Shown here one piece after another: positions 13,829-39,059 of a stretch of DNA of 39,059 bases. The position numbers and the translations under genes are program-made. The stretch spans positions 1-39,059 of the forward strand of contig JACQHB010000007.1 in assembly GCA_016199215.1 (NCBI GenBank), written 5' to 3'. The notes beneath the pieces were generated by a model. It was not told the DNA's origin and did no database searches. It worked only from the letters and a program-made list of their open reading frames with translations. Position 1 is the stretch's first letter; each line of letters opens with the position of its first letter. Source of the stretch: Candidatus Doudnabacteria bacterium. GTDB lineage: Bacteria > Patescibacteriota > Doudnabacteria > UBA920 > O2-02-FULL-48-8.

Positions 13829-13957
13829 TAAATCCGAAATTCAAATATCGAAAATCCTAAACAATGTCAAAATCCAAAGCCCAAATGTTTCAAACATTTG
13901 AATTTTGAACCTTTGAATTTGTTTCGAATTTAGTGCTTCGTGCTTCGAATTTAGCTA
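13829..13957. repeat. Inverted-repeat unit of the CGAAACAAATTCAAA family, gene-less
   Basis: TTAAATCCGAAATTCAAATATCGAAAATCC... left; CTTTGAATTTGTTTCGAATTTAGTGCTTCGTGCTTCGAATTTAG right; ACATTTGAATTTTGA core. Confidence 0.65.
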
Positions 13958-13959
13958 TA

Positions 13960-15993: not shown

Positions 15994-16094
15994 ATTCAAA
16001 GCACAAAGCTCAAATTTCAAATAAGAGTTAATAATTAATATTTTAATTTTTAAAATATATTTGTGCTTTGAATTTTGGACTTTGAAATTTTTTT
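15994..16094. repeat. AT-rich imperfect inverted repeat between uvrD and ksgA
   Basis: TTCAAAGCACAAAGCTCAAATTTCAAA ... TTTGTGCTTTGAATTTTGGACTTTGAAATTT. Confidence 0.6.
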
Positions 16095-16913
16095 ATGAAC
16101 AATCTCACAGACATAACTTATCTCAAATCTTTTTTAAAACAGTCCGGCCTGAAGCCTCGGCATTACCTCGGCCAGAATTTTTTGGTTGATCAGGATGTGC
16201 TGAATCGGATTATCGAGGCCGCAGATCTAAAAAAATCTGACACTGTGCTTGAAGTGGGGCCGGGGATAGGGACACTTACTTCTGAGTTGATTAAGCGGGC
16301 GGGGAAGGTGATAGCGGTGGAGAAGGATGAGTCAATGGCCAGAATCTTTGAGAAGGAATATGGAATATGGATCCAAATTCCAAATTCCAAATTCCAATTA
16401 GTTAACCAGGACATCCTTCGGTTCCATCTTGATCGGCATATTCAAGGCCCTTACAAAGTTGTTGCAAATATTCCTTATTATTTGACTTCAGTTTTATTCC
16501 AATATTTTCTTGGACAAGAAAACAAACCGGAGCTTCTTGTTTTAATGGTGCAAAAAGAAGTTGCGGAAAGAGTGGTTGCAAGCCCTGGGGAGTTATCAGT
16601 TCTTGGGATATCCGTGCAATTTTACGCAGACCCGGAAATTGTAGGAATCGTGAACAAGGAAAGTTTTTGGCCGCAGCCAAAAGTTGATTCCGCCATTTTG
16701 AAAATAACGCCTGTAAATAAATTTCCGGAAGTGGAGGACGAAAAATTATTTTTTAGAATTGTTAAGTCCGCGTTTGCCGGAAAAAGAAAACAGCTTAAGA
16801 ATACGATTAGGGATGTTGAGGCTTTGCGAAGAGCGGGGGTTGAGCCCACTGCAAGACCCCAAGATTTGCAGATAGAAGACTGGGTCAGGCTTTACAAAAT
16901 CATGAAAAGATGA
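16095..16913 (+). CDS. rsmA: 16S rRNA (adenine(1518)-N(6)/adenine(1519)-N(6))-dimethyltransferase KsgA/RsmA
   Basis: KPRHYLGQNFLVDQDVLNRI, VLEVGPGIGTLTSELI, VANIPYYLTSVLFQYF, FWPQPKVDSAIL. Confidence 0.93.
   Translation: MNNLTDITYLKSFLKQSGLKPRHYLGQNFLVDQDVLNRIIEAADLKKSDTVLEVGPGIGTLTSELIKRAGKVIAVEKDESMARIFEKEYGIWIQIPNSKFQLVNQDILRFHLDRHIQGPYKVVANIPYYLTSVLFQYFLGQENKPELLVLMVQKEVAERVVASPGELSVLGISVQFYADPEIVGIVNKESFWPQPKVDSAILKITPVNKFPEVEDEKLFFRIVKSAFAGKRKQLKNTIRDVEALRRAGVEPTARPQDLQIEDWVRLYKIMKR
16373..16393 (+). repeat. Tandem heptamer (CCAAATT)x3 in frame in ksgA
   Basis: GGAATATGGAATATGGATCCAAATTCCAAATTCCAAATTCC encodes GIWIQIPNSKFQ. Confidence 0.8.
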
Positions 16914-16939
16914 AAAACGCTGGACAACCAGCGTTTTTT
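16914..16939 (+). terminator. Rho-independent terminator after ksgA
   Basis: AACGCTGG-ACAA-CCAGCGTT followed by a T-run. Confidence 0.85.
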
Positions 16940-17000
16940 GTGCTATAATATAATAAAGTATTGGAAAGTATTGGTAAGTTCTGAAACAAAAGGGTTGAAA

Positions 17001-17062
17001 TCCACCTTCGCTAAAGCTTCCCCCTTCGCCAAGGCTTCGGGGGACAGGTCGGCGGACAAGCA
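17001..17062. repeat. GC-rich CTTCGCYAARGCTTC repeat, probable dispersed element
   Basis: CCTTCGCTAAAGCTTCCCCCTTCGCCAAGGCTTCGGGGGACAGGTCGGCGGACAAGC: two tandem CCTTCGC(T/C)AA(A/G)GCTTC units. Confidence 0.55.
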
Positions 17063-17076
17063 AAAACAAAACTAAA

Positions 17077-17256
17077 ATGCACGGAAAACTTGAGGAGTTG
17101 CTTACGCTTAAGCAAGCCACTCATCTGCTGAATGTTCATCCAAATACCCTTCGGAACTGGGAAAAAGAAGGGCTGATTGCTGCTGTCCGGATTGGACCGC
17201 GGGGAGACCGCAGATATAAAAAACAGGTCATAAGCCGGATATTAAATCAAAAATAA
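17077..17256 (+). CDS. Small MerR/excisionase-like helix-turn-helix protein (59 aa)
   Basis: My translation: MHGKLEELLTLKQATHLLNVHPNTLRNWEKEGLIAAVRIGPRGDRRYKKQVISRILNQK; not in the supplied ORF track (59 aa). Confidence 0.7.
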   Translation: MHGKLEELLTLKQATHLLNVHPNTLRNWEKEGLIAAVRIGPRGDRRYKKQVISRILNQK

Positions 17257-17630
17257 TGACTGAAGCAAAAAGAATATTAGTAAATATTTTGTTGGGTATT
17301 CTCTTAATTGCTATTTTGTTACCTTTCGTTTCAGTAAAAGAAACAAAAGCTATAGCAGTGGGGTTGCCTTTCGGTGGACGATTGCTTTTTACTTCACCCC
17401 CAATTATCACTCTGATTGTTAATTGTCCTGCTATGGCGCATGTTCTTAACTTAGGTCCCCAGAAAGGGGTTCTCCATTTATTTCTTCCTCCGGGTCAACC
17501 AAAAGCCTTTTATAATTTTTTTACTCCAGGAGTAAGTACCTTAGGTTCATATTATCCAACACCCTTACCTTTTAACTGTCCTGTTCAGCCAATTTTTCCT
17601 GCAAATTATTTTGGAACCAGTGTAAGATAA
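17256..17630 (+). CDS. Small secreted/membrane protein of the T4SS-like cluster
   Basis: N-terminal TM, GLPFGGRLL...C...C pattern; TAATG overlap with the HTH gene. Confidence 0.5.
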   Translation: MTEAKRILVNILLGILLIAILLPFVSVKETKAIAVGLPFGGRLLFTSPPIITLIVNCPAMAHVLNLGPQKGVLHLFLPPGQPKAFYNFFTPGVSTLGSYYPTPLPFNCPVQPIFPANYFGTSVR

Positions 17631-18563
17631 ATGATGCGGAAAAAATCAAAAAATAATTACGGAACATTCGCAGTAAAGAATAAGAGAACCCCCTACTATT
17701 GGGGAGTGGTTTTATTCGCAGTCTTATCAGTCGTTGTTTATTTTGGATTTATTAATCCGAAGAAAAAGGTTCAAGATAATATTTCAACAATTCCAAAAGT
17801 TGAAGCCAATGAAATCCCTGGCTGGTGGTACAAAGATAACTTTGGATCATCTGTCTGTGAAAAAGATAACTGTAAGCAATCAGCAGATCCAGATAATGAT
17901 AAGCTTACTAATTCACAAGAGTTTTTTTACCATTCTGACCCTTTGAATAGAGATACAAATGGTAATGGTTTAACCGACGGAGAAGATGTTGCATATAATT
18001 ATGATCCAAGCAAGGCCGGGAAAGTCACTTTTGATCAAGCTGCGTCTGATGATGAAGTAGTGGGAGAGAGTCTTCTTCTTGATCAAGACATAAAGAAGGT
18101 AATTCAGGACTTGACTAGCATGGACAATGTCCAAGTCCCCAAAATTAATGATATTGAATTGGTAATTACACAGGACAATACTAAACAGGGAATCATCAAT
18201 TACATTGTCCAAACTGAAGAGGTTATTAAAAATAATTTTCCCGATGAAGCGGAATCTTTCATCGCAACCACCCTTGAATCCAAAGACGATGAACAAGTGG
18301 CCGATCTTAAACTTCGAATCACCAGAACAATTATCGATTATAAAAAAATTTCCGTACCTTCAGATGCTTTGCAACTCCACAAATACCAGATTGGATCGTT
18401 CCAAACTTCACTTGCTGTAATCACTGTCCCTCCCGTCACTAATGTGAATGACGTATCCGATCCTGCGGCTAACTTTTGGTATGACCAAGTCCAGACTTAC
18501 GCCTTTTTAGGACAGCAGGTCCAGCTAGAAACAAAAAAGCTTAAAGATAAGTATCAATGGTAG
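17631..18563 (+). CDS. Membrane-anchored protein with calcium-binding thrombospondin type 3-like repeats
   Basis: TM near residues 21-40; DPDNDKLTNSQEFFYHSDPLNRDTNGNGLTDGEDVAYNYDPS. Confidence 0.6.
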   Translation: MMRKKSKNNYGTFAVKNKRTPYYWGVVLFAVLSVVVYFGFINPKKKVQDNISTIPKVEANEIPGWWYKDNFGSSVCEKDNCKQSADPDNDKLTNSQEFFYHSDPLNRDTNGNGLTDGEDVAYNYDPSKAGKVTFDQAASDDEVVGESLLLDQDIKKVIQDLTSMDNVQVPKINDIELVITQDNTKQGIINYIVQTEEVIKNNFPDEAESFIATTLESKDDEQVADLKLRITRTIIDYKKISVPSDALQLHKYQIGSFQTSLAVITVPPVTNVNDVSDPAANFWYDQVQTYAFLGQQVQLETKKLKDKYQW

Positions 18564-20389
18564 GGCAATCAAGAAAATTTATTATACTTTTGGTTTTAAT
18601 ATCTTTGTTGCTTGTTGAAATACAGCCAGCTTTTGCTGTTATTGACGGAACTACTGATCTTTCCGGTGTGCTTTATTCAGTTCCTACCGCGACCATGGCT
18701 GATATCCCCAAACTTAAGGAAAGGATTTGGATAACGATAATGAGAGGGGTTTCTTATGCTCTCGTGGAAGCCTTTACCTCGAGATTTGTAAATAAATTGG
18801 TAGAGAAATATAAAATCCGCAACTACCTTTATTATGACCAAGTTTTGACCAATTATTATCTAAATCGTTATCTAGCTGATAAAATTTCAGACCCCGATTT
18901 ACAAAACATATATGAGTTGATGTACAGGGGCTACATAACAGGAGAATCCACGGGTACTACAGGCGGTCCTGATCCAAATGCGGCAGTCATTCCTAGGCTG
19001 AAACAGGCTATATATAAAGTATATTTAGAGAGCGGCGGGATTCCGAGTGATACTGTTTTTGACCCTTCGACAAGAACTTCTAATGTGGAATATTATGCCG
19101 CTGCTCAAACTTACTGGCTGGGGAGACCAAGCTATACGGAACAGAATTTACAAGGGCAGTTTGGTTCATTCCAAAGCGCCGCCACTACTGCGGCTCAATT
19201 GGAAGTTATTGTGGGCAACGGACTTAAGGCAGGGCGTTTCGTAGGGAGCGGTACGTGTAGTATTTCTTACGAATATGAAACAGAAAAGATAGATAATTTT
19301 TTTGTCAAAGCAGGATTAATAAAAAAGGCATTAGCAGAAGAGCCGCCTGCCGCGCCTGGCGTGCCGGTGGATCCCAATGGGAATTTGCCAGGAACCCAGA
19401 TTCCGATAGAGAACCCGCCATTCGATCCCAATAGTTCCCCGGCTGCCTGCCAGGCTGCCGGAGGGAGATGGACACCTGCTGCGTTGGATCAAGCCCGTTC
19501 TTTTATCGACAACCCTTCATTTTTTGTAAATAACTGGCTACAAGGAGTAATAAGTTCAAAGAGTAATAGTAACTTTGACCCAAGCAATTTCTGGTTTGCC
19601 ATCGGCAGCTCCTTGGGTAAATTTTTGGCAAATCAATTATTTTTAGATAAACAGGGCGGAGTTCTTAAAGATGATCCAAGGCCGTATACACCATTCGATG
19701 ATAATCTTGGGGCAGGAAATGGCGTGGGCTACGATATTGACGGTGACGGAATAATTGATGGTTATGATTACGACGGCGATGGGCAAATGGACGTTTGTAT
19801 TTATGGAGGAGACGCCCCTAACTGCTTAGGATCAAGACAATCAACTACCATTCCACCTCCGCCGTCAGGAGGAGGTGGAGGTGGAGCAACAATTTGTCCA
19901 AGCGATGAAATTAGTTTGGACGTAGTTTACCACGTTGCAAGGAGTGAGCCGGTTAACGGAGTATATTATGACCGTTTGAGTGTTCACGTGGATAATTATC
20001 CTGATGGTTCAGAGCCTCTTGGCCCGGATTTAGTTGATGATGATCCATTCCACGTCCCTCCAAGTTCAGCGCTTAATGATTTTGGCAATATATTTATCCG
20101 GACTTCGGGCGGAGCAGGGGGGTATATTGCAGAAGGCGGAGAAAGCCCCGAAAAAAGAGCGGCGGAAGCAGCGGGAGTAAGAAGGCACACCAAAATTCCT
20201 ACTAATTATGTGATTGACGGATACATTACTGATTCGAATGTTCTCCAGATAAATCTTTCTAATTATGCTTCCGAAAGTCTTACAATTGGCGGATACTTCC
20301 GTGGAACGAATTCCGGAGACGGACGTGCGGAGGTTTGCACGCCGAGAAGCAATGTCCATACTGGACTAGTAATTCCCCAGGTGCCATAA
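18557..20389 (+). CDS. Secreted protein of the T4SS-like cluster with Asp-rich DxDGDGxxD motif
   Basis: Signal peptide KFIILLVLISLLLVEIQPAFA; GYDIDGDGIIDGYDYDGDGQMDVC. Confidence 0.55.
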   Translation: MVGQSRKFIILLVLISLLLVEIQPAFAVIDGTTDLSGVLYSVPTATMADIPKLKERIWITIMRGVSYALVEAFTSRFVNKLVEKYKIRNYLYYDQVLTNYYLNRYLADKISDPDLQNIYELMYRGYITGESTGTTGGPDPNAAVIPRLKQAIYKVYLESGGIPSDTVFDPSTRTSNVEYYAAAQTYWLGRPSYTEQNLQGQFGSFQSAATTAAQLEVIVGNGLKAGRFVGSGTCSISYEYETEKIDNFFVKAGLIKKALAEEPPAAPGVPVDPNGNLPGTQIPIENPPFDPNSSPAACQAAGGRWTPAALDQARSFIDNPSFFVNNWLQGVISSKSNSNFDPSNFWFAIGSSLGKFLANQLFLDKQGGVLKDDPRPYTPFDDNLGAGNGVGYDIDGDGIIDGYDYDGDGQMDVCIYGGDAPNCLGSRQSTTIPPPPSGGGGGGATICPSDEISLDVVYHVARSEPVNGVYYDRLSVHVDNYPDGSEPLGPDLVDDDPFHVPPSSALNDFGNIFIRTSGGAGGYIAEGGESPEKRAAEAAGVRRHTKIPTNYVIDGYITDSNVLQINLSNYASESLTIGGYFRGTNSGDGRAEVCTPRSNVHTGLVIPQVP

Positions 20390-20392
20390 AAT

Positions 20393-23300
20393 ATGAATAT
20401 TATCGTCAAGAAAATTTTATTAATCCTTACTTTGGCCTTTTTGGCAAACCTTTCGTTTGCTGATTTAGGTTTTGCTGTAATTTCGCCCACCCCCCCGCAG
20501 GAAGTATTGATTGAGCCGGGGGAATTAAATTTGATTAATAAAGATAAAAAGATTCAGGAATGTGAAACAACTCTTTCAAACCGTCTTTACAAAGTTTCGG
20601 ATTTTGGTTTTATGGAAAGCGGAACTGGCTTATGGCTGGAAAACGTCACTTGGCTCGTTGCCAGATGGGACTACACAAATAATCAATGTTTAATTTATCA
20701 AAAGCAGAGAATAAATTTTGCTACCGATGCAAAAATTGATAGCTTTGAAGCAAGAGGCTATAAAACCGAAGATATAACCGCTACTGGAGCTTATTACTTG
20801 GAAAGAACGGAATATGCCAGGATGGTGGAAAATAAGCTTAAGAACACAAGCACTAAGATTACGGTGCAAAATTTTAACAGGACAGTTGGGGCAAATACGG
20901 AAGCAACTGGCGCAAGCAAAGTAATCGGCACGATTCTTGCAAAGCTTATTGGTTTGGTTACGTCAGCAGTTCTTGCTCTAACCTCCATGGCCGGTGAATT
21001 AATGTCCTGGGTGATTGATGAAGTCACTGGCGCCGCTCAACCCCTTGTCGTTACCACTGGTTGGAAGATAATAAGAGATATTATGAACATGATTTTCATA
21101 TTGGCGCTCATTATTATGTCTCTTGGAACCATACTTAGGATTGAGAAATATAATTATAAAAAGTTATTGGTCAAGCTGGTTATAATGGCTATACTGATTA
21201 ATTTCAGCAAAGTAATCGCCGAGTCCTTCATTGGCTTAGTTGATATTCTGATTAGAATCTTTGCAGCCCAAGGGAACTGGACGGAATTTTTAAGTTATGC
21301 AAAAAATATCGCGTTTTACGCCGATTTTTCTTCAAGCAAAGGTTTTTTAAGCGATTTAGGACTTTCCATAACCGGACTTATCCTTGCTCTCGTGATGCTT
21401 GTAACATTTTTAGCTGTCGCACTGCTTCTGGTTATTCGCACCGTTGGCCTGTGGGTTTTAGTTATTCTTTCCCCAGTGGCTTATGCCCTCTATATTCTCC
21501 CGGGTACAGAGAAATGGGCGCAGAAATGGTGGGAAACCTTTATTAAATATCTTATATGGGCTCCAGTGGCAGTATTTTTCCTGCGGCTTGGCGATATTTT
21601 TATAGTAGAAATGAGAGCGAGGTTAACAAGCACTAAAACAAATAATCCGACTTTTGATTTTATTTTTGCTATGGCTTTTATGTGGGCAGCGGTTTACGTT
21701 GCCAAGCAGGCGGGGATGGTTGGGGGAGATATGGCGATTAAGGGAGCAAAGAGCGTCGTTACTGGCAAATATGGCATGAAAGGGGCTGCCCAATGGGGAC
21801 TTGGTGCAACTGATAGATGGCTGGGCCGAGGGGCTAGTAGTTCCAGCAAGCTTAGAAGAGGGTTATCGTATGCGAGCGTCGGAGCCTGGAAAAAAGGCAG
21901 AAAAGAGAGAAGTCAGAAATTAGAAGAAGAGGCGTATACTGTATCTGGCGGTATGAGGGCGAACGTTCTTTCAAAGGTCTTTGGCGGGCCTCGTGATTTT
22001 GCAAAATTAGCCCAGTACCAAAGAGTTGCCCAGGAAAGGAGGCGGCTTGAGAATGTGGTTGATAAGGATGAATTAACAGCAGAAGTTATGCAGGCGTTAA
22101 ATAGAAAAGAGTGGGATAAAGCAATGGGCGGAATGATGAAATTAGCTGCGCAAGGGGATTTGAATGAGGTGCTCTTGGCAAAAGGCTTAACCGCGGATGC
22201 CCAAGGTCTGCAGGCATTAATAAATGAGATAGTAACCAAATCGGGGAATAATACATATATGAGGATGGGGGCGGAACTTTCAAAAACTGCGGAAAATGCC
22301 AACTGGTGGGTTTTAGCCGGGGCTTTTAAACGCAATGATGACGGGAGTTGGTCAAATCGTTCGGAAGAGGACAGAAGAGGATACGTTAATGTTCAAAGAG
22401 CAAAGGCGAGTGATCAGGTTAACATAAGAACCCTTACAAGGGCCGGTATCGGTTTCAAAGAAAGAGTGGATGAGAATGGTGTCTGGTATGTCGAAGGTAT
22501 AACTGAGGACGGTTTGGATTATGCTTCCCGGGTAAAAAATATCCAAGAATGGCGGAACAATGGCAACAAGAATGCAAAAGCGAACGTCGCCATTAGCGGT
22601 TCAGCGGATTGGTTGAGGGTTAATCCAGAAGCTTGGGCTGTGGCAGCAAATGAATATGCAAGCACAAAATTGGATGATCCTGACCGTTTGGAACAACTGC
22701 ATAAATCTGTTGCCGCTCCAAACCCGCAGAGAGACTATGGTACAAATAGAACCGTGAATGCTACACAGGCTAGGGCATATTTTAACCGATTCACAGGAGA
22801 AGAAAGAGATAAAAAAATTAAAGACTATTCTGATTTGGCGCGTTTGGCCGGAATAACGCCCCCAGGAGCTGCTGGGACTCAGCCTGCTCCAACTGCTACC
22901 ACTCCTGCAGCTACCGGTGGCGCAGCAACAACTGCCACAGCAGCTACAGGCCGAGGAGGATCAAGCCAACCTCAATCAAGATTTGAGAGTACTTCGGGAC
23001 AAGCTGTTGTGGTGGAAAACAGAGCTCCTCATGTTCAGACGGCAACGGAAGTGATTAGAGAAGTAAGAGCTCCAGCGGGTGCTCACGATGCCATACGTGA
23101 AGTGTCTAGGCAGTTTCATGGGGGTGAACAGCTTGATGTAGGCGTCATTAAAGACCAACTAAGAAACTTGGGATTAAGCGTTGAACAAGCCAGTGATGCG
23201 ATAAGCTCTTTGGCAAAGCGCGCTGCTGATTTTAGAGTGAACCGAGTAAGTGATGCCGCTTATAATAGGACAGGAATCGACATGTCTGAATTTAAAAGGG

Positions 23301-23440
23301 TTTTGAAAAATTTTATGTCTGCGCGACACGAAACAGGTGGGGAAGTCAACGAAAGAGTGATAGTAAACACAATAAGGTCCCAATGGCCCCAAGTAAACTC
23401 AAATGACGCTCAAACTATTGCTAGACAAATGTTTGGTTAA
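20393..23440 (+). CDS. VirB6/TrbL-like polytopic T4SS membrane protein with long soluble C-terminal region
   Basis: Signal peptide; ~6 TM segments incl. IIRDIMNMIFILALIIMSLGTILRI, LWVLVILSPVAYALYILPGTEKWAQKWWETFIKYLIWAPVAVFFLRLGD. Confidence 0.7.
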   Translation: MNIIVKKILLILTLAFLANLSFADLGFAVISPTPPQEVLIEPGELNLINKDKKIQECETTLSNRLYKVSDFGFMESGTGLWLENVTWLVARWDYTNNQCLIYQKQRINFATDAKIDSFEARGYKTEDITATGAYYLERTEYARMVENKLKNTSTKITVQNFNRTVGANTEATGASKVIGTILAKLIGLVTSAVLALTSMAGELMSWVIDEVTGAAQPLVVTTGWKIIRDIMNMIFILALIIMSLGTILRIEKYNYKKLLVKLVIMAILINFSKVIAESFIGLVDILIRIFAAQGNWTEFLSYAKNIAFYADFSSSKGFLSDLGLSITGLILALVMLVTFLAVALLLVIRTVGLWVLVILSPVAYALYILPGTEKWAQKWWETFIKYLIWAPVAVFFLRLGDIFIVEMRARLTSTKTNNPTFDFIFAMAFMWAAVYVAKQAGMVGGDMAIKGAKSVVTGKYGMKGAAQWGLGATDRWLGRGASSSSKLRRGLSYASVGAWKKGRKERSQKLEEEAYTVSGGMRANVLSKVFGGPRDFAKLAQYQRVAQERRRLENVVDKDELTAEVMQALNRKEWDKAMGGMMKLAAQGDLNEVLLAKGLTADAQGLQALINEIVTKSGNNTYMRMGAELSKTAENANWWVLAGAFKRNDDGSWSNRSEEDRRGYVNVQRAKASDQVNIRTLTRAGIGFKERVDENGVWYVEGITEDGLDYASRVKNIQEWRNNGNKNAKANVAISGSADWLRVNPEAWAVAANEYASTKLDDPDRLEQLHKSVAAPNPQRDYGTNRTVNATQARAYFNRFTGEERDKKIKDYSDLARLAGITPPGAAGTQPAPTATTPAATGGAATTATAATGRGGSSQPQSRFESTSGQAVVVENRAPHVQTATEVIREVRAPAGAHDAIREVSRQFHGGEQLDVGVIKDQLRNLGLSVEQASDAISSLAKRAADFRVNRVSDAAYNRTGIDMSEFKRVLKNFMSARHETGGEVNERVIVNTIRSQWPQVNSNDAQTIARQMFG

Positions 23441-23445
23441 AATAT

Positions 23446-24690
23446 ATGCCTTTTAAGCTTAACAAAATTGAAATACAAGGACAGCTGTCGGATCCCAAGG
23501 TTTACGACAGTGTTCTCTTTTTTGCCGATTTAGTTCTTGATGAAAATTCCGGTGCAAATATACACAAATTTCATCAGGATCTTAAGCATGCGCTTCAACA
23601 GCAGAAGAATCAATTAGGTGAAAACGCAAGCAGATATGACTCCTTACTATTGAGGCTGCAATTCCGATCTATTCCTTTGTTGTCAGATGAAGAAATTAAA
23701 GGAATTTTGTCGAAAAGGATATTTTTTGCATACAAAGCGGACGTCGATCTGAAAAAATCTTTTTCCATGATGTTTGTGCCGTTTTTTTTCCAGGATGATT
23801 TTACCACTCTCACGAGAATTATTCGTCATTTGGAAGATAATAGCGAGACAATCGGCAGGAATAACATTATCCTCACTGACGGAAAAGTAGTCCATCCATT
23901 GATCTCGAATTGGTTAAAAGATTATAGGATTAAGACAGTGGAAAATAAAGGCAGCCTTAATATAATCAGCTTTCTAACCCATAGCAATAATTGTAAGAAC
24001 TTAAACGAACAAGAACTCGGATTTTTGAAATATGTTTTGAATTTTTACGATTGGCTTAGGTTTGAGGCAAGCAAAACTTCGTTTATAGAAGAAGATATTC
24101 CAGCTAAAAGTATTATCCGGCCTGTCCCTCCCCCTGCTCCAAGTATTATACAACCACCGCAGCTTCCCAAATTTCCCGTAAAATTTAATCAGGAAATTGC
24201 CGTCTCGCCAAAGCCTGTCCATCTTGTTCCGTTTAAGGTCGACCTTAAAGAAATTGAGAGGGAAGTGGGTACTCCGGAATTGCCTGCGCCAAAGACTCAG
24301 ATTTTCCGCGGACAATCGCCAACAGTTCCGCATCCGGCTGCGGTTTTCGACCCGCGCACCCGCATGCATCAAGATTTCGGCGGGCAGGGAAAAGTGGCCG
24401 CACAGCAAATCAATGTGATTGATGATCTTAAAAAACTTGACGTTGGCTATCTAAGGCGAGGGGAGCTGCAAAAGCAAATATCAAATATCAAATATCAAAT
24501 ATCAAAATTGGCGCAAGTAAATCACCTGTATCCTTATCAGGTTGTCATGGCTTTTGAACAAAGCCCCCTGTTTAAGCTTTACTTGTCGCATGGCAGTTCA
24601 CGCGTTATCGGCCAGCCGACGAAGGACGATTTGTCTCAACCCGAATTTGAGGCCATTGCGGATTTGAGGAAAGAGATTGAAAGATTGTAA
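23446..24690 (+). CDS. Uncharacterised protein of the T4SS-like cluster
   Basis: 414-aa ORF in operon register; no motif recognised. Confidence 0.55.
   Translation: MPFKLNKIEIQGQLSDPKVYDSVLFFADLVLDENSGANIHKFHQDLKHALQQQKNQLGENASRYDSLLLRLQFRSIPLLSDEEIKGILSKRIFFAYKADVDLKKSFSMMFVPFFFQDDFTTLTRIIRHLEDNSETIGRNNIILTDGKVVHPLISNWLKDYRIKTVENKGSLNIISFLTHSNNCKNLNEQELGFLKYVLNFYDWLRFEASKTSFIEEDIPAKSIIRPVPPPAPSIIQPPQLPKFPVKFNQEIAVSPKPVHLVPFKVDLKEIEREVGTPELPAPKTQIFRGQSPTVPHPAAVFDPRTRMHQDFGGQGKVAAQQINVIDDLKKLDVGYLRRGELQKQISNIKYQISKLAQVNHLYPYQVVMAFEQSPLFKLYLSHGSSRVIGQPTKDDLSQPEFEAIADLRKEIERL
24478..24505 (+). repeat. Tandem heptamer (ATATCAA)x4 in frame in the 414-aa ORF
   Basis: Four exact 7-bp units encoding QISNIKYQIS. 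Confidence 0.8.
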
Positions 24691-24780
24691 ATCCGAATAT
24701 CGAATATCGAAATCCGAAACAAATTCAAATGTCTAAAATTCAAAACAAAAAGCCCCTTTTGGGCTATTTTGTTTATTGAT
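24688..24780 (+). repeat. Left-end relic of the four-helix-bundle cassette
   Basis: TAAATCCGAATATCGAATATCGAAATCCGAAACAAATTCAAATG, then short ORF MSKIQNKKPLLGYFVY* (24729-24779). Confidence 0.55.
24745..24772 (+). terminator. Short terminator-like hairpin
   Basis: AGCCC-CTTTT-GGGCT with flanking A and T runs. Confidence 0.5.
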
Positions 24781-24796
24781 AAGATTATGTTATAAT
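24769..24796 (+). promoter_or_regulatory. Putative promoter upstream of the four-helix-bundle gene
   Basis: TTGTTT, 16 nt, TATAAT. Confidence 0.45.
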
Positions 24797-24816
24797 ATTG
24801 GGGATAAATTCTAAAG

Positions 24817-25285
24817 TGAATATCGAAGTCCGAAACAAATTCAAATGCCCGAAGCTCAAAACCCAAAGAACTATGATTTGGAAGAAAGAACGTATAAATT
24901 TGCGGCAGATTGCAGAAAGCTTATAAAGAAAATTTCCAGAACTATATCTAACATTGAGGATTGTAAACAGCTGACTAAGTCTTCAGGTTCAATACCTGCA
25001 AATTATATAGAAGCCAACGAGGCTCTAAGCAAAAAAGACTTTGTAATGCGCATTAAAATCTGCCGTAAAGAATCTAAAGAGAGCATTTTGTGGTTACGGT
25101 TATTTGATCTCGAAGACCCCACTTTAGACAAAGAACGAAACAGATTAAAACAAGAAGCCACCGAACTTATGAAGATATTTGGTTCGATATTAAGAAAGTC
25201 AGAATAGCACTGTTTCAATATTTGATATTTGAATTTAGATATTGTTTCGAATTTCGGGTTTCGTGCTTCGATATTAAATAAGAAC
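24817..25285 (+). mobile_element. Putative four-helix-bundle cassette bounded by inverted repeats
   Basis: Left GAATATCGAAGTCCGAAACAAATTCAAATG; right reverse complement AATATCGAAGCACGAAACCCGAAATTCGAAACAATATCTAAATTCAAATATC. Confidence 0.5.
24845..25207 (+). CDS. Four-helix bundle protein (23S rRNA IVS/S23-like, Avd-related fold)
   Basis: NPKNYDLEERTYKFAADCRKLIKKI...QLTKSSGSIPANYIEANEALSKKDFVMRIKICRKESKESILWLRL matches the family pattern. Confidence 0.8.
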   Translation: MPEAQNPKNYDLEERTYKFAADCRKLIKKISRTISNIEDCKQLTKSSGSIPANYIEANEALSKKDFVMRIKICRKESKESILWLRLFDLEDPTLDKERNRLKQEATELMKIFGSILRKSE

Positions 25286-25296
25286 AAGAATAAATT

Positions 25297-25737
25297 ATGC
25301 AGTATGCTTTGCCTCAATTTACCGACATCGAAGACAAGCTGATCGGGCCGTTGACGTTAAAACAGTTTCTGTCTCTTTTGGCCACAGGCGGCCTGGTTTT
25401 ATTTTTTTGGTCGATATTCAAAATCAGTATTTTCTTTTTCTTTTTCGCGCTCCCAGTCGCCTTGTGCGGTATTTTTATCACTTTCGGCAGATTTAATGGA
25501 AGGTCGGTATTCACTTACGTACTTCCTTTTTTGGCTTTTATGGCCCGGCCAAGACTAAGGATATTTAAGAGAGAAACCCCCACCTTGGCCATTCAAAAAA
25601 GCGTCCGGACCAAAGAGGAAATAAAAAAGAGTCCAGAGAACTCAGCTGAAGAGCCGGGGAGCCGACTTAAGAAATTAGCCTATTTATTGGACCAGAGATC
25701 GCTTGAAGAAAGCAAATTAGCGAAAGAAGACATATGA
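25297..25737 (+). CDS. PrgI family / T4SS-associated small membrane protein
   Basis: QYALPQFTDIEDKLIGPLTLKQFLSLLATGGLVLFFW, two TM segments, upstream of VirB4-like genes. Confidence 0.7.
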   Translation: MQYALPQFTDIEDKLIGPLTLKQFLSLLATGGLVLFFWSIFKISIFFFFFALPVALCGIFITFGRFNGRSVFTYVLPFLAFMARPRLRIFKRETPTLAIQKSVRTKEEIKKSPENSAEEPGSRLKKLAYLLDQRSLEESKLAKEDI

Positions 25738-26426
25738 GCGAAATGGCATCAAAAGAAAAAGCGGGAGCGGGAACGCAGGCCTACTTAGACATTGCCGAAG
25801 TAAGAGAGGGAACAGTGGTTCTCAAAGATGCTTCTATGAGAGCAGTCGTGGTAGTTTCTTCCACCAATTTTTCCCTGAAAAGCGGAGAGGAGCAGAACGC
25901 TTTAATTAATTCTTACCAGAGTTTCCTTAATTCATTGGAATTCCCGATCCAAATAGTTATGCAGTCGAGAAAACTGGACGTCCACGGCTATTTGGACAAA
26001 CTTAGGGCGATAATGCAGCAACAGACAAACGAACTCTTGCGCCTGCAGACCCAGGAATATATTGAATATGTCGGAAAGTTGATTGAATTTGCCAGCATAA
26101 TGAACAAGACTTTTTACGTGGTGGTCCCTTATTCCACTCAGGCGACGAAACAAGGATTTTTTAATAAGCTAGGGTCAATCTTAAACCCTGCTTCTACTGT
26201 TAGTCTTAAAAAACAGGAGTTCGAGGCGCACAGGGAAGAGCTTTATAAAAGAGTTAACCAGGTAGTCGGCCTTCTATCAAGCATGGGATTGAGGGCTCTT
26301 GTTTTGGATACCGAAGAATTGATTGAGCTGATGTATAATAGCTATAATTTTGATTCCGCGTCGCCGATTCATATTAAGAGCGTCGCGGAGCTTGAAGTGG
26401 CGGGCAATCAAGACGAAAGCCCTTAG
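25734..26426 (+). CDS. TraC/VirB4 N-terminal-domain-like protein
   Basis: YLDIAEVREGTVVLKDASMRAVVVVSSTNFSLKSGEEQNALINSYQSFLNSLEFPIQIVMQSRKLDVHGYL. Confidence 0.65.
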   Translation: MSEMASKEKAGAGTQAYLDIAEVREGTVVLKDASMRAVVVVSSTNFSLKSGEEQNALINSYQSFLNSLEFPIQIVMQSRKLDVHGYLDKLRAIMQQQTNELLRLQTQEYIEYVGKLIEFASIMNKTFYVVVPYSTQATKQGFFNKLGSILNPASTVSLKKQEFEAHREELYKRVNQVVGLLSSMGLRALVLDTEELIELMYNSYNFDSASPIHIKSVAELEVAGNQDESP

Positions 26427-26427
26427 C

Positions 26428-26567
26428 ATTAAATCCGAATATCGAATATCGAAATTCGAAACAATATCAAATGACCAAAATAATAAATCCAAAACATCGT
26501 TCAGATATTAAATATTTGAAATTTGAATTTGTTTCGTGCTTCGGATTTCGTGTTTCGGATTTATAAA
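26428..26567. repeat. Gene-less inverted-repeat unit (deletion relic of the four-helix-bundle cassette)
   Basis: TTAAATCCGAATATCGAATATCGAAATTCGAAACAATATCAAATG left; TTTGAATTTGTTTCGTGCTTCGGATTTCGTGTTTCGGATTTA right; internal 31-codon ORF MTKIINPKHRSDIKYLKFEF... (26471-26566). Confidence 0.65.
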
Positions 26568-32750: not shown

Positions 32751-32871
32751 AAAAATAAAAAGCAGCCTTTAAGCCGCCGCCGCCTCGTTTCACGAGGCGA
32801 GCCTCGCCAATCTTCGATTGGCGAGGACCCACTAGGTATAAATTTTCAACTGGAGTTTTTAGGTCAAACAT
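32743..32871 (-). pseudogene. Diverged recG 5' fragment forming a 42-aa upstream ORF that overlaps the recG start
   Basis: MFDLKTPVENLYLVGP versus recG MFELSTPVQNLYLVGP; the uORF stop TGA lies inside ATGTTTGAA of recG. Confidence 0.7.
32781..32826. repeat. Tandem palindromes with identical triloops
   Basis: CGCCTCGT-TTC-ACGAGGCG and CCTCGCCAATC-TTC-GATTGGCGAGG, both perfect stems. Confidence 0.8.
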
Positions 32872-32873
32872 AC

Positions 32874-33056
32874 TGGTGTGGCTTTACAACCACGCTCGAA
32901 CGTATTTTAGCAAAAATTGCTGAATTTGGCGAACGCCTCCGCGCCGCCGCAAAGCGGAGGCGTGCCAAGTTTGTACTCGGGCGCAGCGGAAGGGGGGTGT
33001 GGGAGGAATTCCGCTACGCCCTCGCTTCGGCTGGTGGCGAAAAATTGGCGGCGGGC
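32874..33056 (+). repeat. Left inverted repeat (IR-A) of the island
   Basis: TGGTGTGGCTTTACAACCACGCTCGAACGTATTTTAGCAAAAATT ... GGAATTCCGCTACGCCCTCGCTTCGGCTGGTGGCGAAAAATTGGCGGCGGGC; reverse complement of 37064-37239 with a divergent core. Confidence 0.9.
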
Positions 33057-33062
33057 GGAACT

Positions 33063-33839
33063 CTAAAAATTGAAAGGTTTTGAATTTTGCCAAATAATAT
33101 CAAACTGGCCTTTCATTGTCTTGGTAAATTCTTGGCTTTTGATAATGAACCCAAAATTTTCACGAGATGAAGAGATAAATCTCACCGTATTTTCATAGAT
33201 AGCATACCCCAAAGAAAAATCTGTTCCTTCTGGAGCTAATCTTACTTCTCGGTTATTTTGATTTCCAATTTTAAGAAAAGGATATTTTTCCAAAGACGGA
33301 ATTTGAGTACGCGGCCAAATGGTTTTTAAAGTAATATTTCTTTTTACTCTTTCATTATGAAATTCCTGGTGAAATTGCGGGGTCAGTAATTTAATTACGT
33401 CCAAAATAGGCCAATACACAGATACTGTTATATTTTGATAAAGTAGCATATCCTTCATCATTTGTTGCAGTTCCTCTCTTCCTTCGAATAATTGCAAAAT
33501 AGGTCTTAGTCGCACTTGACCTTTGCCATATATGCTTTTTAAATCCGCCATAGCTTCTCGTGCAAGAGCAAGATTTGTTTCTTGCTCAGTTAAAATTAGC
33601 TCAATTTTTTCAGGTAGTTCAACGCTATATTTTCTTATCCCACCTTTCAAAGTTTGGGTTACTAAACCTCGTTCTTTTAGTCGAGCGAGGTAATCGTACA
33701 CAGAAGTACGAGTGATATTTGCCTCGTGCGCCAATTCTGTTGCGCTAACTAACCCGCTTTCGAGTATCTTTTCAAAAATTTCTGCCTCGATCTCTTTGAG
33801 ATTAAACAGTGCGAGGATGTTCTTTAGTTTCGGAGTCAT
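33063..33839 (-). CDS. TrmB-family-like transcriptional regulator
   Basis: N-terminal wHTH FNLKEIEAEIFEKILESGLVSATELAHEANITRTSVYDYLARLKERGLV; C-terminal effector-type domain. Confidence 0.8.
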   Translation of the reverse strand: MTPKLKNILALFNLKEIEAEIFEKILESGLVSATELAHEANITRTSVYDYLARLKERGLVTQTLKGGIRKYSVELPEKIELILTEQETNLALAREAMADLKSIYGKGQVRLRPILQLFEGREELQQMMKDMLLYQNITVSVYWPILDVIKLLTPQFHQEFHNERVKRNITLKTIWPRTQIPSLEKYPFLKIGNQNNREVRLAPEGTDFSLGYAIYENTVRFISSSRENFGFIIKSQEFTKTMKGQFDIIWQNSKPFNF

Positions 33840-33929: not shown

Positions 33930-35234
33930 ATGAAAGTCCAGTTGGTCGTTCCCGCTCTTGAGGGGTTCAAATACACCCGCAAAAGCGGGTGCCCTCCTCT
34001 GGGCATTGCCAGCATCGCCTCCTACCTAAAAAGGCATGCTGACGCTGATGTAGAGATTCTGGACGGCGAGATGATTGCTGATAACAAGACAATCGTTTCT
34101 CGTATAAGCTCCGGTGCTCTCGTCGGGGTCCTTACTAAAACTCCAAACTATCCTGGAGCGGTCAGGATTGCAGAAGGAGCGAAAGCCAATGGCTGCACAG
34201 TCGTTTTTGGTGGAGTGTACGCCTCAAACATGGCTCAAGCAATCATGCAACACCGCCATACGGTAGTTGATTTCGTAGTGCGTGGTTTCGGCGAAAAACC
34301 GATGCTTCGAATTCTCGAAATGATCCGGTCAGGTCAGCAATTTCCGGAAAAACGGATTTTGCTTGAACCTGCTCCGTGTTTTGACGAGATGGGCTGGCCA
34401 AGCCGCGGGTGGTTTGACATGGAGCAGTATATCGCCAACTTCGCTGCCGATCGGCCTAGTTGGAATTTGGCTCATGGCACCAACCTTTTCACACACATGG
34501 GCTGTGTCCATAAGTGTGATTTCTGCTCGCGGATGGGCCCGTTGGGTGGAGGGGTGTACTGGCGTGAGCCAAAAAACATTTGGGCTGAAGTGCGAGAGCT
34601 GGTATCGAGCTACGGAATAGACTACGTACTTGATTTCAGTGACACACTCACCCAAAACCGGCGCTGGCTTCAGGCACTTGTTGAGGCAAGACCGTACGAC
34701 CTGGAGCATATCCGCTGGCATGTATTTGCCACCGCAAAGCGGATTCCAGACAGCATTGAGCTACTCAAACTGCTCAATGTCGCGCATGTTTTTGTCGGCG
34801 TGGAAACTGGAGACGAGCTGATATCGCAGAACGTGCTCAAAGGGAGAAGGTTCAGCCCGCAACTGGTGCGTAATGGAATCAGTCTCTTGGTTGAAGCTGG
34901 GATTCGTGTCACTCCGTCCTTTGTGTACGGCTTGCGTGGCGAAACTCCGGCGAGTATGGAACGGACATTCCGATTTGCGCAAGAACTCGTAGCACTTGCC
35001 GGAGCAGAAGAAGTCTTTGCTTCGGAGCTGATTCCTTGGCCGGGAGCACCGGCTTGGGAGACAGTTCGCCAATTCTTCGGCGGTACGGACTTGCTTGAGG
35101 TCGAAGCACTGAAAGAGGTCTGGCTTCGTGAGGTTGTTCACCTCAGTCCTGTTCACGCGCGTGAGTACGTCAACAACACGCTGGCACTCGCAAAGTATCC
35201 CATTAGCGTGCAAGGAAAGGAGGATAAGCAATGA
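33930..35234 (+). CDS. B12-binding-domain radical SAM protein
   Basis: N-terminal PPLGIASIASYLKRH...DGEMI; CVHKCDFC (CX3CX2C) cluster; VFVGVETGDELI; strong SD AAAGGAGAG upstream. Confidence 0.88.
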   Translation: MKVQLVVPALEGFKYTRKSGCPPLGIASIASYLKRHADADVEILDGEMIADNKTIVSRISSGALVGVLTKTPNYPGAVRIAEGAKANGCTVVFGGVYASNMAQAIMQHRHTVVDFVVRGFGEKPMLRILEMIRSGQQFPEKRILLEPAPCFDEMGWPSRGWFDMEQYIANFAADRPSWNLAHGTNLFTHMGCVHKCDFCSRMGPLGGGVYWREPKNIWAEVRELVSSYGIDYVLDFSDTLTQNRRWLQALVEARPYDLEHIRWHVFATAKRIPDSIELLKLLNVAHVFVGVETGDELISQNVLKGRRFSPQLVRNGISLLVEAGIRVTPSFVYGLRGETPASMERTFRFAQELVALAGAEEVFASELIPWPGAPAWETVRQFFGGTDLLEVEALKEVWLREVVHLSPVHAREYVNNTLALAKYPISVQGKEDKQ

Positions 35235-35977
35235 AAATAATCCGGCCAATCTTCCTGTTCGGATGCCCGAACAGTGGAACTACAATTCTGTGGCGTGCAC
35301 TCAAGAACCATACGGACTTGAGTGGGCCTGACACGGAAGATCAGGATATCGAGGGTATGCCGAATTCCATGCGTCACCACCTCGGAAACGCCACTTTCCG
35401 ACTCTGGGCTCATCCGAAGTTTGGCCTTGCTTATTATGTAACCGAGCAGGACTACAACGAGGAGGACACCCAAAGACTTCGAACAATTTACTGCCAGTCA
35501 CTTGCGCCTGGTACAAGGCTGGTGGTGAAAAGCCCGGCGCACACGCTACGGGCTCGGCTAATACAAGCATACTTTCCCGACGCGTACTTCGTAGCCATTG
35601 TTCGGAATGGCTACGCGGTTGCAGAAGGAATTGTACGAAAGAGGAAGTACGACCCTGATCGTCCGCAATTTAAAGGTTTAACCACAACCATTGAAGAGGC
35701 GGCGGAACAGTGGTTCAGAGCGAACGTGGTGGTAGTTTCGCACCAACAGTTCTTGCGTAATTACCTCATCGTGAAGTACGAGGATTTGGTACAAAATCCA
35801 GGAACAACGCTGTATCAAATTCTCGACCACTGCGGTCTAGCCCGAACCTCCATTCAAGTCCCCAACTTCAAGCAGGATAAAAACGACGAGCAAATCGCTC
35901 GACTAACAAAGGAGGAAATCGACGCCATAACGAGAATCGCCGGGCCGATGTTGCGTCACTTCGGCTACGTTCTTTAA
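35231..35977 (+). CDS. Sulfotransferase family protein
   Basis: PAPS 5'-phosphosulfate loop-like FLFGCPNSGTTILWRAL; YFVAIVRNGYAVAEG; LIVKYEDLVQNP. Confidence 0.8.
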   Translation: MKIIRPIFLFGCPNSGTTILWRALKNHTDLSGPDTEDQDIEGMPNSMRHHLGNATFRLWAHPKFGLAYYVTEQDYNEEDTQRLRTIYCQSLAPGTRLVVKSPAHTLRARLIQAYFPDAYFVAIVRNGYAVAEGIVRKRKYDPDRPQFKGLTTTIEEAAEQWFRANVVVVSHQQFLRNYLIVKYEDLVQNPGTTLYQILDHCGLARTSIQVPNFKQDKNDEQIARLTKEEIDAITRIAGPMLRHFGYVL

Positions 35978-36026: not shown

Positions 36027-36986
36027 ATGCAATACAAAATATTTGGTCCAACAGGTAAAAAAGTTTTTAACGTCGGTCTTGGCACTTATGGTCACGGCGA
36101 AGCATATGGCGGAATTACCAAAGAAGAATCTTTGGAGATTTTACATACTGCGGCTGAATACATAACCGAGGATGTCCATCTTCTTATTGATACTGCTCCA
36201 AGATATGGAAACGGGGAGGTAGAAATTTGGATTGGAGAATTTTTGAAAAACTATAAAAAGAATAATATCCTTGTAGCCACAAAGGGCGGAAGACATATTG
36301 AGCCCAGACGCGTGAATGAGAAAGACTTTAGTCCGAAATTTCTTCAAGCCGATTTGGAAGGAAGTTTAAAGAGGCTTGGACAAGATAATGTCTTTCTCTA
36401 TCAACTCCATAACCCATCTCTCGATATCATTACAGATGGCTCGGTATTTACCTTTTTGGAAGAGATGAGAAGGCAAGGGAAAATTCAATGGTATGGAGTA
36501 TCTATTGATACTGCTGAAGAAGGTTTGGCGGTTATTGATGTTTGTCGTAAGCGGAGATATAAAGGACTAGCGTCTCTTCAGCTTATTTATAACATTCTTC
36601 AAAAGCATATAATTGACGAACTTCAGCGACAGACAAATAATATTGACCTAGCAATTATTGCACGGGAGCCACTTCTTCGTGGCTTTTTGACTGACCTATA
36701 CGACGAAAAAGTGAATATATCAAAACTTCCTCCTGCTCCCAAAAAAGTAATTGACCTCTATGGTAAAGATAAACTATTTGCACATGTTAAAACGGTGCGT
36801 AAGTTTTTGAATGAACAAGATATTACCATGCCGCAATTGGCACTCCAATTTGTTCTTGCTCACCCTTTAATAACCACGGTAATACCGGGAATAAATAAAA
36901 AAGGGTATATTGCCTTAGATTTTTCTTTGGATAACAATAATTTGAGTTTAGAACAGGCAGAACAACTTAAAAAAATTGATGATTAA
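36027..36986 (+). CDS. Aldo/keto reductase family protein
   Basis: VGLGTYGHGEAYGG, LIDTAPRYGNGEVEIWIGEFL, VATKGG, LYQLHNP, WYGVSID, PQLALQFVLAHPLITTVIPGIN. Confidence 0.88.
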   Translation: MQYKIFGPTGKKVFNVGLGTYGHGEAYGGITKEESLEILHTAAEYITEDVHLLIDTAPRYGNGEVEIWIGEFLKNYKKNNILVATKGGRHIEPRRVNEKDFSPKFLQADLEGSLKRLGQDNVFLYQLHNPSLDIITDGSVFTFLEEMRRQGKIQWYGVSIDTAEEGLAVIDVCRKRRYKGLASLQLIYNILQKHIIDELQRQTNNIDLAIIAREPLLRGFLTDLYDEKVNISKLPPAPKKVIDLYGKDKLFAHVKTVRKFLNEQDITMPQLALQFVLAHPLITTVIPGINKKGYIALDFSLDNNNLSLEQAEQLKKIDD

Positions 36987-37063
36987 AGGGGAGTTGTTAG
37001 CTAAAAGCCGCGCGGATGGGAGGGTGGGCCAAGCGGCTTTCCTTTTTCTTATTTTGTTTTTAA

Positions 37064-37239
37064 GCCCGCCGCCAATTTTTCGCCACCAGCCGAAGCGAGG
37101 GCGTAGCGGAATTCCCCCACACCCCCTTCCGCCGCGCCCGAGCGCAGTATTGTCATTGTGCCGCGCGTAGCGCGGCTCTCTGTCATTTTTTACAAATTTT
37201 TGCTAAAATATGTTCGAGCGTGGTTGTAAAGCCACACCA
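37064..37239 (-). repeat. Right inverted repeat (IR-A') of the island
   Basis: GCCCGCCGCCAATTTTTCGCCACCAGCCGAAGCGAGGGCGTAGCGGAATTCC ... AATTTTTGCTAAAATATGTTCGAGCGTGGTTGTAAAGCCACACCA. Confidence 0.9.
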
Positions 37240-37371
37240 CTAAACAACTTTTCAATTTTTTTGAAGCCAAATTGTGGGCGGCACGAAGTGCCGCCCATTG
37301 GTTTTCCCCTGACAAATCCGCTTCGCTCGGCGCGCGCAGGCGCGCCTCGCGGTTGGCCAAAACGAGGTTCG
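37235..37371 (-). repeat. Inverted repeat IR-B: antisense partial copy of the recombinase C-terminal coding region
   Basis: Reverse complement of 38923-39059 with about 3 mismatches in 137 bp. Confidence 0.95.
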
Positions 37372-37431
37372 CTCTTGTGCGATTTTAAATTCTGTCTCGG
37401 ATTTGCTTTGCCCAAAATACAAAAAGAATTT

Positions 37432-37459
37432 TTGCCTTGGATATTAGGTATGATATACT
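37432..37459 (+). promoter_or_regulatory. Recombinase promoter
   Basis: TTGCCT, 16-nt spacer, TATACT. Confidence 0.5.
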
Positions 37460-37465
37460 TGTAAT

Positions 37466-37535
37466 GTATCCAACTCCGCAAGTCTTCTTTTTTGATGGCC
37501 GTCTCGGTCAATTCAAGGAGACTTGAGTTGGATAC
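37466..37535 (+). promoter_or_regulatory. Structured leader or recombination-site-like hairpin upstream of the recombinase
   Basis: GTATCCAACTC-CGC-AAGTCT ... AGACTT-GAGTTGGATAC: 17-bp stem with a 3-nt bulge. Confidence 0.55.
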
Positions 37536-37571
37536 AACCGGGGCGGCCTTTAAAGTTTAACTAACATTTTT

Positions 37572-39059
37572 ATGCAAAAATTCTTTTTGTATGCCCGCAA
37601 GTCCACCGATGTGGAAGATAAGCAAGTTTTGAGTATTGAAGCGCAACTAACAGAATTGCGCGAGCTTGCCAAGCGTGAAAACTTGGAGGTAGTTGAGGAG
37701 TTGGTGGAGAAACAATCGGCCAAAATTCCAGGCAGACCAATTTTTAACGAAATGTTGCGAAGAATTGAAGCCGGAGAAGCTGCCGGAATTTTGGCCTGGC
37801 ATCCGGACAGATTGGCGCGCAATTCTGTTGACGGTGGAAAAATAATTTACCTTTTAGACACAGGTGGACTTGCGGGCTTGAAGTTTCCGCAGTTTTGGTA
37901 TGAAAACACCGCGCAAGGTAAATTCATGCTCAATATTGCTTTTGGGCAAAGCAAATACTATATAGACAATTTGAGCGAGAATACCAAACGAGGATTGCGC
38001 CAAAAAGTCAGACGAGGTGAATATCCCGGCCTTGCGCCTGTGGGTTATCAGAATGACCCTCGCACAAAAACCGTTGTCGTGGACAAAAAGCGAAGTGTGG
38101 TTATCCGCAAGGCCTTTGAGCTGTACGCGCAAAATAACTCTCGTTTAGAGGACATTGCCAACTTTTTGGCGCAGAATGGTATTCTCACTTCTGGTGGCAA
38201 GAAACTTCACCGAGACAGAATTTCTTTTATCCTTTCCAACCCGTTTTATTACGGACATTTTCGCTATGCTGGGGAGGTTCACGAGGGCAAGCACCAGCCA
38301 GTCGTCTCAAAGAAAATTTTTGATAAAGTCCAAGAGGTAATGAAGCAGAGAGGAAAACCTAAAACCAAAGGCAAAGTTGAAAAACCATTTGTCGGACTTT
38401 TACACTGTGATGAATGTGGCCGTATGATAACTGCCGAAATCCAGAAAGGTCATACTTATTATCGTTGCACGAAGAAAAACATTGTTTGTAGTCAGCCGTA
38501 TGTCCGTGAAGAAGAATTGGATCGGCAGTTATCTTCTCTGCTTCAAAAATTTTCTTTGAGACCGGATTGGGCGGCACAAATGGACAAAATGCTGAAAAAA
38601 GACAAAAAGGAATCCGCCCAATCCGCAACCGCTTTTGTTCAAGAGGCAGACGAAAAGACTAAGACACTAAATATCAAACTCCAGCGACTTTTAGACGGAT
38701 ATTTGGAACAAGATATTGAACGCGAAATATATCTCGAAAAGAAGCGAAATTTCATGAGTGAAAAAAAGTCGCTGGAGGAGCAAATCATCAACTTCGAACA
38801 AAAGCGGACTGGCTGGCTCGAACCGATGGCGGAATGGATAAAAGAAGCAGAATCTCTGCCTAAAATCGCACAAGAGAGCAACCTTTTCTCAAAAAAGGTT
38901 GCTGCCGAACATTTGTTCGGCTCGAACCTCGTTTTGGCCAACCGCGAGGCGCGCCTGCGCGCGCCGAGCGGAGAGGATTTGTCTGGGGAAAACCAATGGG
39001 CGGCACTTCGTGCCGCCCACAATTTGGCTTCAAAAAAATTGAAAAGTTGTTTAGTGGTG
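37572..39059 (+). CDS. Large serine recombinase (resolvase/invertase), 3'-incomplete at window end
   Basis: My translation is open for 496 codons: MQKFFLYARKSTDVEDKQVLSIEAQLTEL..., recombinase domain, zinc-ribbon LHCDECGRMITAE...YYRCTKKNIVC, coiled-coil, LFGSNLVLANREARLRAP. Missing from the ORF track because no stop lies in the window. Confidence 0.93.
   Translation, partial: MQKFFLYARKSTDVEDKQVLSIEAQLTELRELAKRENLEVVEELVEKQSAKIPGRPIFNEMLRRIEAGEAAGILAWHPDRLARNSVDGGKIIYLLDTGGLAGLKFPQFWYENTAQGKFMLNIAFGQSKYYIDNLSENTKRGLRQKVRRGEYPGLAPVGYQNDPRTKTVVVDKKRSVVIRKAFELYAQNNSRLEDIANFLAQNGILTSGGKKLHRDRISFILSNPFYYGHFRYAGEVHEGKHQPVVSKKIFDKVQEVMKQRGKPKTKGKVEKPFVGLLHCDECGRMITAEIQKGHTYYRCTKKNIVCSQPYVREEELDRQLSSLLQKFSLRPDWAAQMDKMLKKDKKESAQSATAFVQEADEKTKTLNIKLQRLLDGYLEQDIEREIYLEKKRNFMSEKKSLEEQIINFEQKRTGWLEPMAEWIKEAESLPKIAQESNLFSKKVAAEHLFGSNLVLANREARLRAPSGEDLSGENQWAALRAAHNLASKKLKSCLVV
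38923..39059 (+). repeat. Inverted repeat IR-B' within the recombinase 3' coding region
   Basis: CGAACCTCGTTTTGGCCAACCGCGAGGCGCGCCTGCGCGCGCCGAGCG...GGCTTCAAAAAAATTGAAAAGTTGTTTAGTGGTG; partner of 37235-37371. Confidence 0.95.

Follow-up and report, generated by a model that had tools for sequence, protein, structure and literature searches.

Islands moved by a CcrB-like large serine recombinase are described from Dehalococcoides, where the recombinase DsiB serves ssrA islands with varied cargo that target the T-loop of the tmRNA (PMC3146451). These islands have the tmRNA as their single target, a six-gene integration module, a second recombinase (DsiA) and 20-bp direct repeats (PMC3146451). 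Insertion at a tRNA 3' end that leaves the tRNA whole is described for the islands of tyrosine integrases, which a 2014 paper gave as the only integrases then known to target tRNA genes (Islander, PMC4383910). For the A118-type LI integrase, attP carries the zinc-ribbon (ZD) motif 5 bp farther outward than attB does (PMC3783163).

The locus considered here lies in the window, the whole stretch of 39,059 nucleotides that was analysed and that ends together with its contig (C5) at position 39059. On sequence grounds, the island in its right part is very probably a mobile element that has integrated here and is moved by the large serine recombinase it encodes, and integration at the 3' end of a tRNA gene is strongly supported by sequence comparison. 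We file it as a variant of the serine-recombinase integrative elements, little known, in CPR/Patescibacteria; a search of the open-access literature found no description of this family. The Dehalococcoides tmRNA islands are the closest system by concept, sharing with the element a large serine recombinase, a place at the tRNA-like 3' portion of a gene and varied cargo; for a relative, too, an att site has been reported inside the recombinase gene (PMC3146451). However, the target here is tRNA-Arg, not tmRNA, neither a second recombinase nor integration-module genes were found within the island, and the passages of that report drawn on here describe no inverted second attP, no mosaic and no use of many tRNA genes. 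The tyrosine-integrase islands differ in enzyme class, the island holding no tyrosine recombinase and only one recombinase, of serine type.

The recombinase gene (37572..39059, plus strand) encodes an N-terminal resolvase domain (PF00239), a recombinase domain (PF07508) and a zinc ribbon (PF13408), all above cut-offs. Its best NCBIfam profile match is CcrB, at 129 bits against a cut-off of 900, and the SCC equivalog scores (CcrA/CcrB/CcrC) were not reached, at 129, 75 and 66 bits against cut-offs of 900, 700 and 900. The element is thus like staphylococcal SCC (CcrA/CcrB) in recombinase profile and unlike it in scoring far under the family cut-off. Staphylococcal SCC elements use a target gene other than a tRNA gene. 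Among solved structures, YokA and the A118 integrase match, their sequences being only weakly similar (E about 1e-8 and 1e-5); these phage serine integrases (A118/LI, SPbeta YokA) resemble the element in domain order and in an attP motif further from the core than in attB, but have one attP and other targets. Plasmid and phage collections returned distant recombinases only. A prophage was considered and rejected, as the island holds no viral structural or replication genes, only four non-viral cargo genes, and phage records match the recombinase weakly.

Boundaries of the island and its junction with the tRNA gene

Read along the plus strand, the left part of the locus runs from the chromosome through a core TGGTG (32874..32878, plus strand), a P arm, four cargo genes and an inverted P arm to an inverted core (37239-37235), and the right part continues with an inverted P' arm, a mosaic, a promoter, a leader and the recombinase gene, which itself ends in a P' arm, followed by a further core TGGTG and the tRNA. 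The left core, placed by P-arm scan and by alignment with relatives, would be attL, with chromosome on its left and the P arm on its right; its left flank is like the empty site in genome G003. The left P arm (IR-A; 32879..33075, plus strand) is an inverted match to 37045-37242 and carries the conserved motif TAC[AG]AC..GCTCGAAC, the stretch 32871-32918 matching 37195-37242 inversely at 96%. The inverted P arm (IR-A'; 37045..37234, minus strand) is placed by the same repeat match and motif. Next to it, the internal core (37235..37239, minus strand) joins P and P' arms as an intact attP, and the same junction occurs in 36 relatives. The inverted P' arm (37240..37371, minus strand) is a copy of the recombinase 3' end, and the P' arm within the recombinase gene (38923..39054, plus strand) is placed by repeat match and by relatives. 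Finally, the right core (39055..39059, plus strand) would be attR, its TGGT being the antisense of the ACCA of tRNA-Arg(GCG). Thus, sequence comparison finds outer ends structured as expected of attL and attR, a complete inverted attP between cargo and recombinase, and a recombinase 3' end that doubles as one attP arm.

That tRNA lies on another contig. The last 40 bp of contig C5 equal the first 40 bp of contig C1 of the same genome, the sole other contig sharing this end, and after the shared 40 bp contig C1 continues with CACCCGGCAGGGATCGAACC, which is the 3' end of tRNA-Arg(GCG) (C1:36-111) in antisense. One repeat copy leads into IR-A' within C5 and the other into the tRNA in C1, so that both repeat continuations are accounted for; because the copies are identical near the core, the assignment of one of them to the tRNA depends on the assembly. 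Many genomes from the family and order have recG, tRNA-Arg and the gene beside that tRNA in C1 as direct neighbours with no island, indicating that the island was inserted between recG and tRNA-Arg; this synteny also supports the join of C5 to C1, and the uninterrupted site in G003 looks like the island's left flank fused to the tRNA. When integrated, the recombinase reads through into the tRNA antisense (HPAGIEPATLGSANLRSIH), while its reading at an attP junction would be WLYNHARTYFSKNL.

The earlier note had taken the island boundaries for duplicated 3' ends of the recombinase gene. Its inverted copy of 38923-39059 at 37235-37371 holds, at 98% over 137 nt counting the core, and the minus strand of that copy does run on into IR-A' as VWLYNHARTYFSKNL, with a peptide match over 37193-37372. 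By contrast, the recombinase 3' end does not occur three times, as it stated: the 3' end (P' arm) is present twice, and so is the IR-A side (P arm), while the left IR-A consists of a P arm alone with recG-side DNA outside it. From its reading it had proposed that cargo was captured between recombinase remnants, or that successive recombinase insertions or inversions moved the island, and had predicted that the contig would continue past 39059 as TGGCTTTACAACC into the IR-A motif. A partial inverted recombinase copy does adjoin the cargo; however, contig C1 contradicts the predicted continuation and does not enter IR-A, and at the left boundary recombinase coding sequence is absent outside the P arm. 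Moreover, because the recombinase 3' end is an attachment-site arm and the internal copy an intact inverted attP, and because the same arrangement recurs with different, unrelated cargo in dozens of relatives at many tRNA genes, we consider trapping between decayed copies from successive insertions or inversions very improbable: the recombinase 3' end and inverted arrangements do shape the island edges, but the inverted copy is an attachment site and not a decayed remnant.

Relatives at tRNA genes and their cargo

Searching 192 genomes with an exact P-arm pattern gave 3 carriers only, the pattern being too strict, and a position-weight scan took its place. Relatives came from one genome scan, which yielded 80, and counts over 81 loci comprise these and the window. 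In 66 of the 81 loci the recombinase gene lies directly at a tRNA 3' end, and 13 isotypes are represented in all. The reverse isomer, with the tRNA on the other side and the recombinase facing away, was called by script in 5 loci and recognised in one more (L054) by inspection; the script called no tRNA beside the recombinase in 10 loci, 5 of which end within 50 nt of the recombinase or are otherwise explained. In one metagenome-assembled genome (MAG), relatives sit at the tRNAs for Gln, Leu and Met (L107, L114 and L117). The locus L043, with a recombinase 89% identical and the same layout, lies at tRNA-Ile and holds other cargo; its IR-A copies are 100% identical over 180 bp. The complete layout is present in 16 loci, contigs of 792 and 972 kb among them, and the recurrence of an identical layout in dozens of relatives places the repeats far beyond chance. 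Contigs often break at these repeats, which could suggest that the inverted copy was made by assembly; yet there are a few base differences between the copies and the layout appears in independent assemblies, also inside very long contigs (L110 and L112), leaving an artefact with next to no probability.

The cargo between the P arms varies from element to element. In the window it comprises a TrmB-like regulator (33063..33839, minus strand; PF01978) and, on the plus strand, a B12-binding radical SAM protein (33930..35234; PF04055, PF02310), a sulfotransferase (35231..35977; PF13469) and an aldo/keto reductase (36027..36986; PF00248). Relatives carry a SET protein with a glycosidase; HydF with two radical SAM proteins and deoxyhypusine synthase; GmrSD/HNH with other defence-like genes; or NUDIX, glycosyltransferase, alcohol dehydrogenase and HD genes. 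The cargo of L082 (2893-7602) has two reverse transcriptases together with an Lcl_C protein, which may form a diversity-generating system, and that of L095 (1674-6245) resembles anti-phage defence genes (PD-Lambda-2 parts and a restriction enzyme).

L129 (G018:C52, 7866-9459) has two back-to-back P-arm pairs about 94 bp apart, a short hairpin spacer with no recombinase joining them and 1.4 kb lying between, and looks like an array of cargo-only cassettes. A lone P arm in L128 (G004:C9, 9033), 94% like the window's peptide reading and with no recombinase nearby, is a possible remnant or non-autonomous unit. Within the window, the intergenic parts of 13829-26563 hold scattered A/T-rich repeats such as TAAATCCGAATATCGAATATCGAAA, some direct and some inverted.

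Attachment-site sequence and proposed movement

The P arm of attP reads TGG, N2, N4, T[TA]TAC[AG]AC, N3, GCT[CA]GAAC and then TATTTT, and the tRNA antisense reads TGG followed by the acceptor stem, the T stem and the T-loop TCGAAC. TCGAAC starts at +18 in the tRNA (35 of 44 sites) and at +22 in attP (32 of 37 sites), so that the T-loop-like TCGAAC of the attP arm (IR-A) lies 4 bp further from the core than its counterpart in the tRNA. As is characteristic of large serine recombinases, attP and attB thus share a short core with the recognition motif further out in attP, the shift being in the same direction as that of the LI integrase but of 4 bp rather than 5 (PMC3783163). At the two positions that follow TGG (73 and 72 of the tRNA, antisense), the internal attP and the tRNA have the same bases in 36 of 36 comparable loci, compared with about 38% of unmatched pairs. 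At several loci (L043, L050, L052, L078, L082 and L085), TTG or ATG stands at the left end in place of the element's TGG. This is what one would expect of an empty tRNA gene that lacks an encoded CCA and receives it from the element, which seems to supply the CCA of the tRNA in some hosts. We infer that the recombinase may read the T-loop sequence together with a CCA-end core common to all tRNA genes, and reading of these shared parts would explain isotype-independent targeting.

In the movement we propose, crossover would take place in the core at G-N73-N72 (antisense), leaving the tRNA whole and exchanging the last codons of the recombinase for tRNA antisense. Excision (attL x attR) would then release a circle carrying two oppositely oriented attP sites, either of which may be able to integrate. 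Two opposed attP sites would account for both isomers, with the recombinase facing the tRNA or facing away from it, although the orientation bias of 66 to 6 counts against two equal sites. The same inverted cores could instead form an on/off switch in an element that rarely moves, the recombinase inverting its own gene between the internal and tRNA cores or the cargo between the left and internal cores. Near-identical inverted repeats do flank both modules, both orientations occur in nature, and the recombinase C-terminus differs by orientation. However, different cargo at 13 tRNA isotypes shows that the elements move, one orientation dominates, and serine integrases normally need a directionality factor to join attP with attL or attR (PMC3783163); we therefore regard a switch as unlikely and retain an element that moves between tRNA genes.

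Mosaic and leader upstream of the recombinase gene

Unremarked in the earlier note, the inverted copy extends past 37371 to 37435 as a mosaic (37372..37435, minus strand) between the inverted P' arm and the promoter, built of four exact, collinear recombinase-gene pieces (37574-37591, 37940-37956, 38210-38222 and 38861-38876) of 13-19 nt each, with no spacers. The gene positions of the pieces are the same in relatives, and the reverse complement of the upstream 260 nt shares at least one exact 13-mer with gene nt 1-1345 in 53 of 74 loci, compared with 2 and 0 in two controls. Counts of co-change in the mosaic are biased, the segments having been chosen by match, and the test anchored on the repeat (piece 4) is preferred. 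In this test, piece 4 matches its own gene at 12.5 of 14 positions against 9.8 for other genes, and own gene against nearest differing relative wins 23 times and loses 3, indicating that each mosaic copy keeps step with its own gene. Such tracking could come from pairing, copying or selection. Extra constraint at synonymous sites of the copied gene segments was not strong (68th-85th percentile of codon conservation), and a coding role of the mosaic is ruled out by frame shifts at the piece junctions.

The mosaic and the nested inverted repeats might also be a working part of the movement cycle, the element moving as folded single-stranded DNA. A single strand would form two adjacent hairpins, one from IR-A and IR-A' and the other from the two recombinase 3' ends and the mosaic, which would rebuild a double-stranded attP; movement might follow DNA uptake, for example, and pairing would keep the mosaic matched to its gene. 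We hold such a cycle to be quite unlikely.

Mosaic piece 1 overlaps the -35 box of the putative recombinase promoter (37432..37459, plus strand), which was assigned from sequence with TTGCCT (37432-37437) as -35 and TATACT (37454-37459) as -10, the latter conserved in the leader alignment. Downstream, covariation in an alignment of 25 relatives supports a leader pseudoknot (37465..37551, plus strand) of two crossing helices, 37465-37473 with 37528-37536 and 37494-37504 with 37541-37551. With 90.4% of cells paired and 103 two-sided changes, counts that lean towards the structure because it was chosen from the alignment on which it was scored, none of 500 shuffles scored as high, and slid versions reached 31-44%. 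Rfam gave no family match at the pseudoknot, which likely controls recombinase expression.

The mobile elements of CPR bacteria are poorly understood, and the analysis yields att sites that can be tested, a leader RNA structure absent from Rfam and a mini-copy that tracks its gene. If the recombinase family does recognise features common to all tRNA genes, it would form a compact integration system with a broad choice of targets, and such broad tRNA targeting would help explain how cassettes for hydrogenase maturation, restriction, reverse transcriptases and metabolic enzymes spread in CPR.
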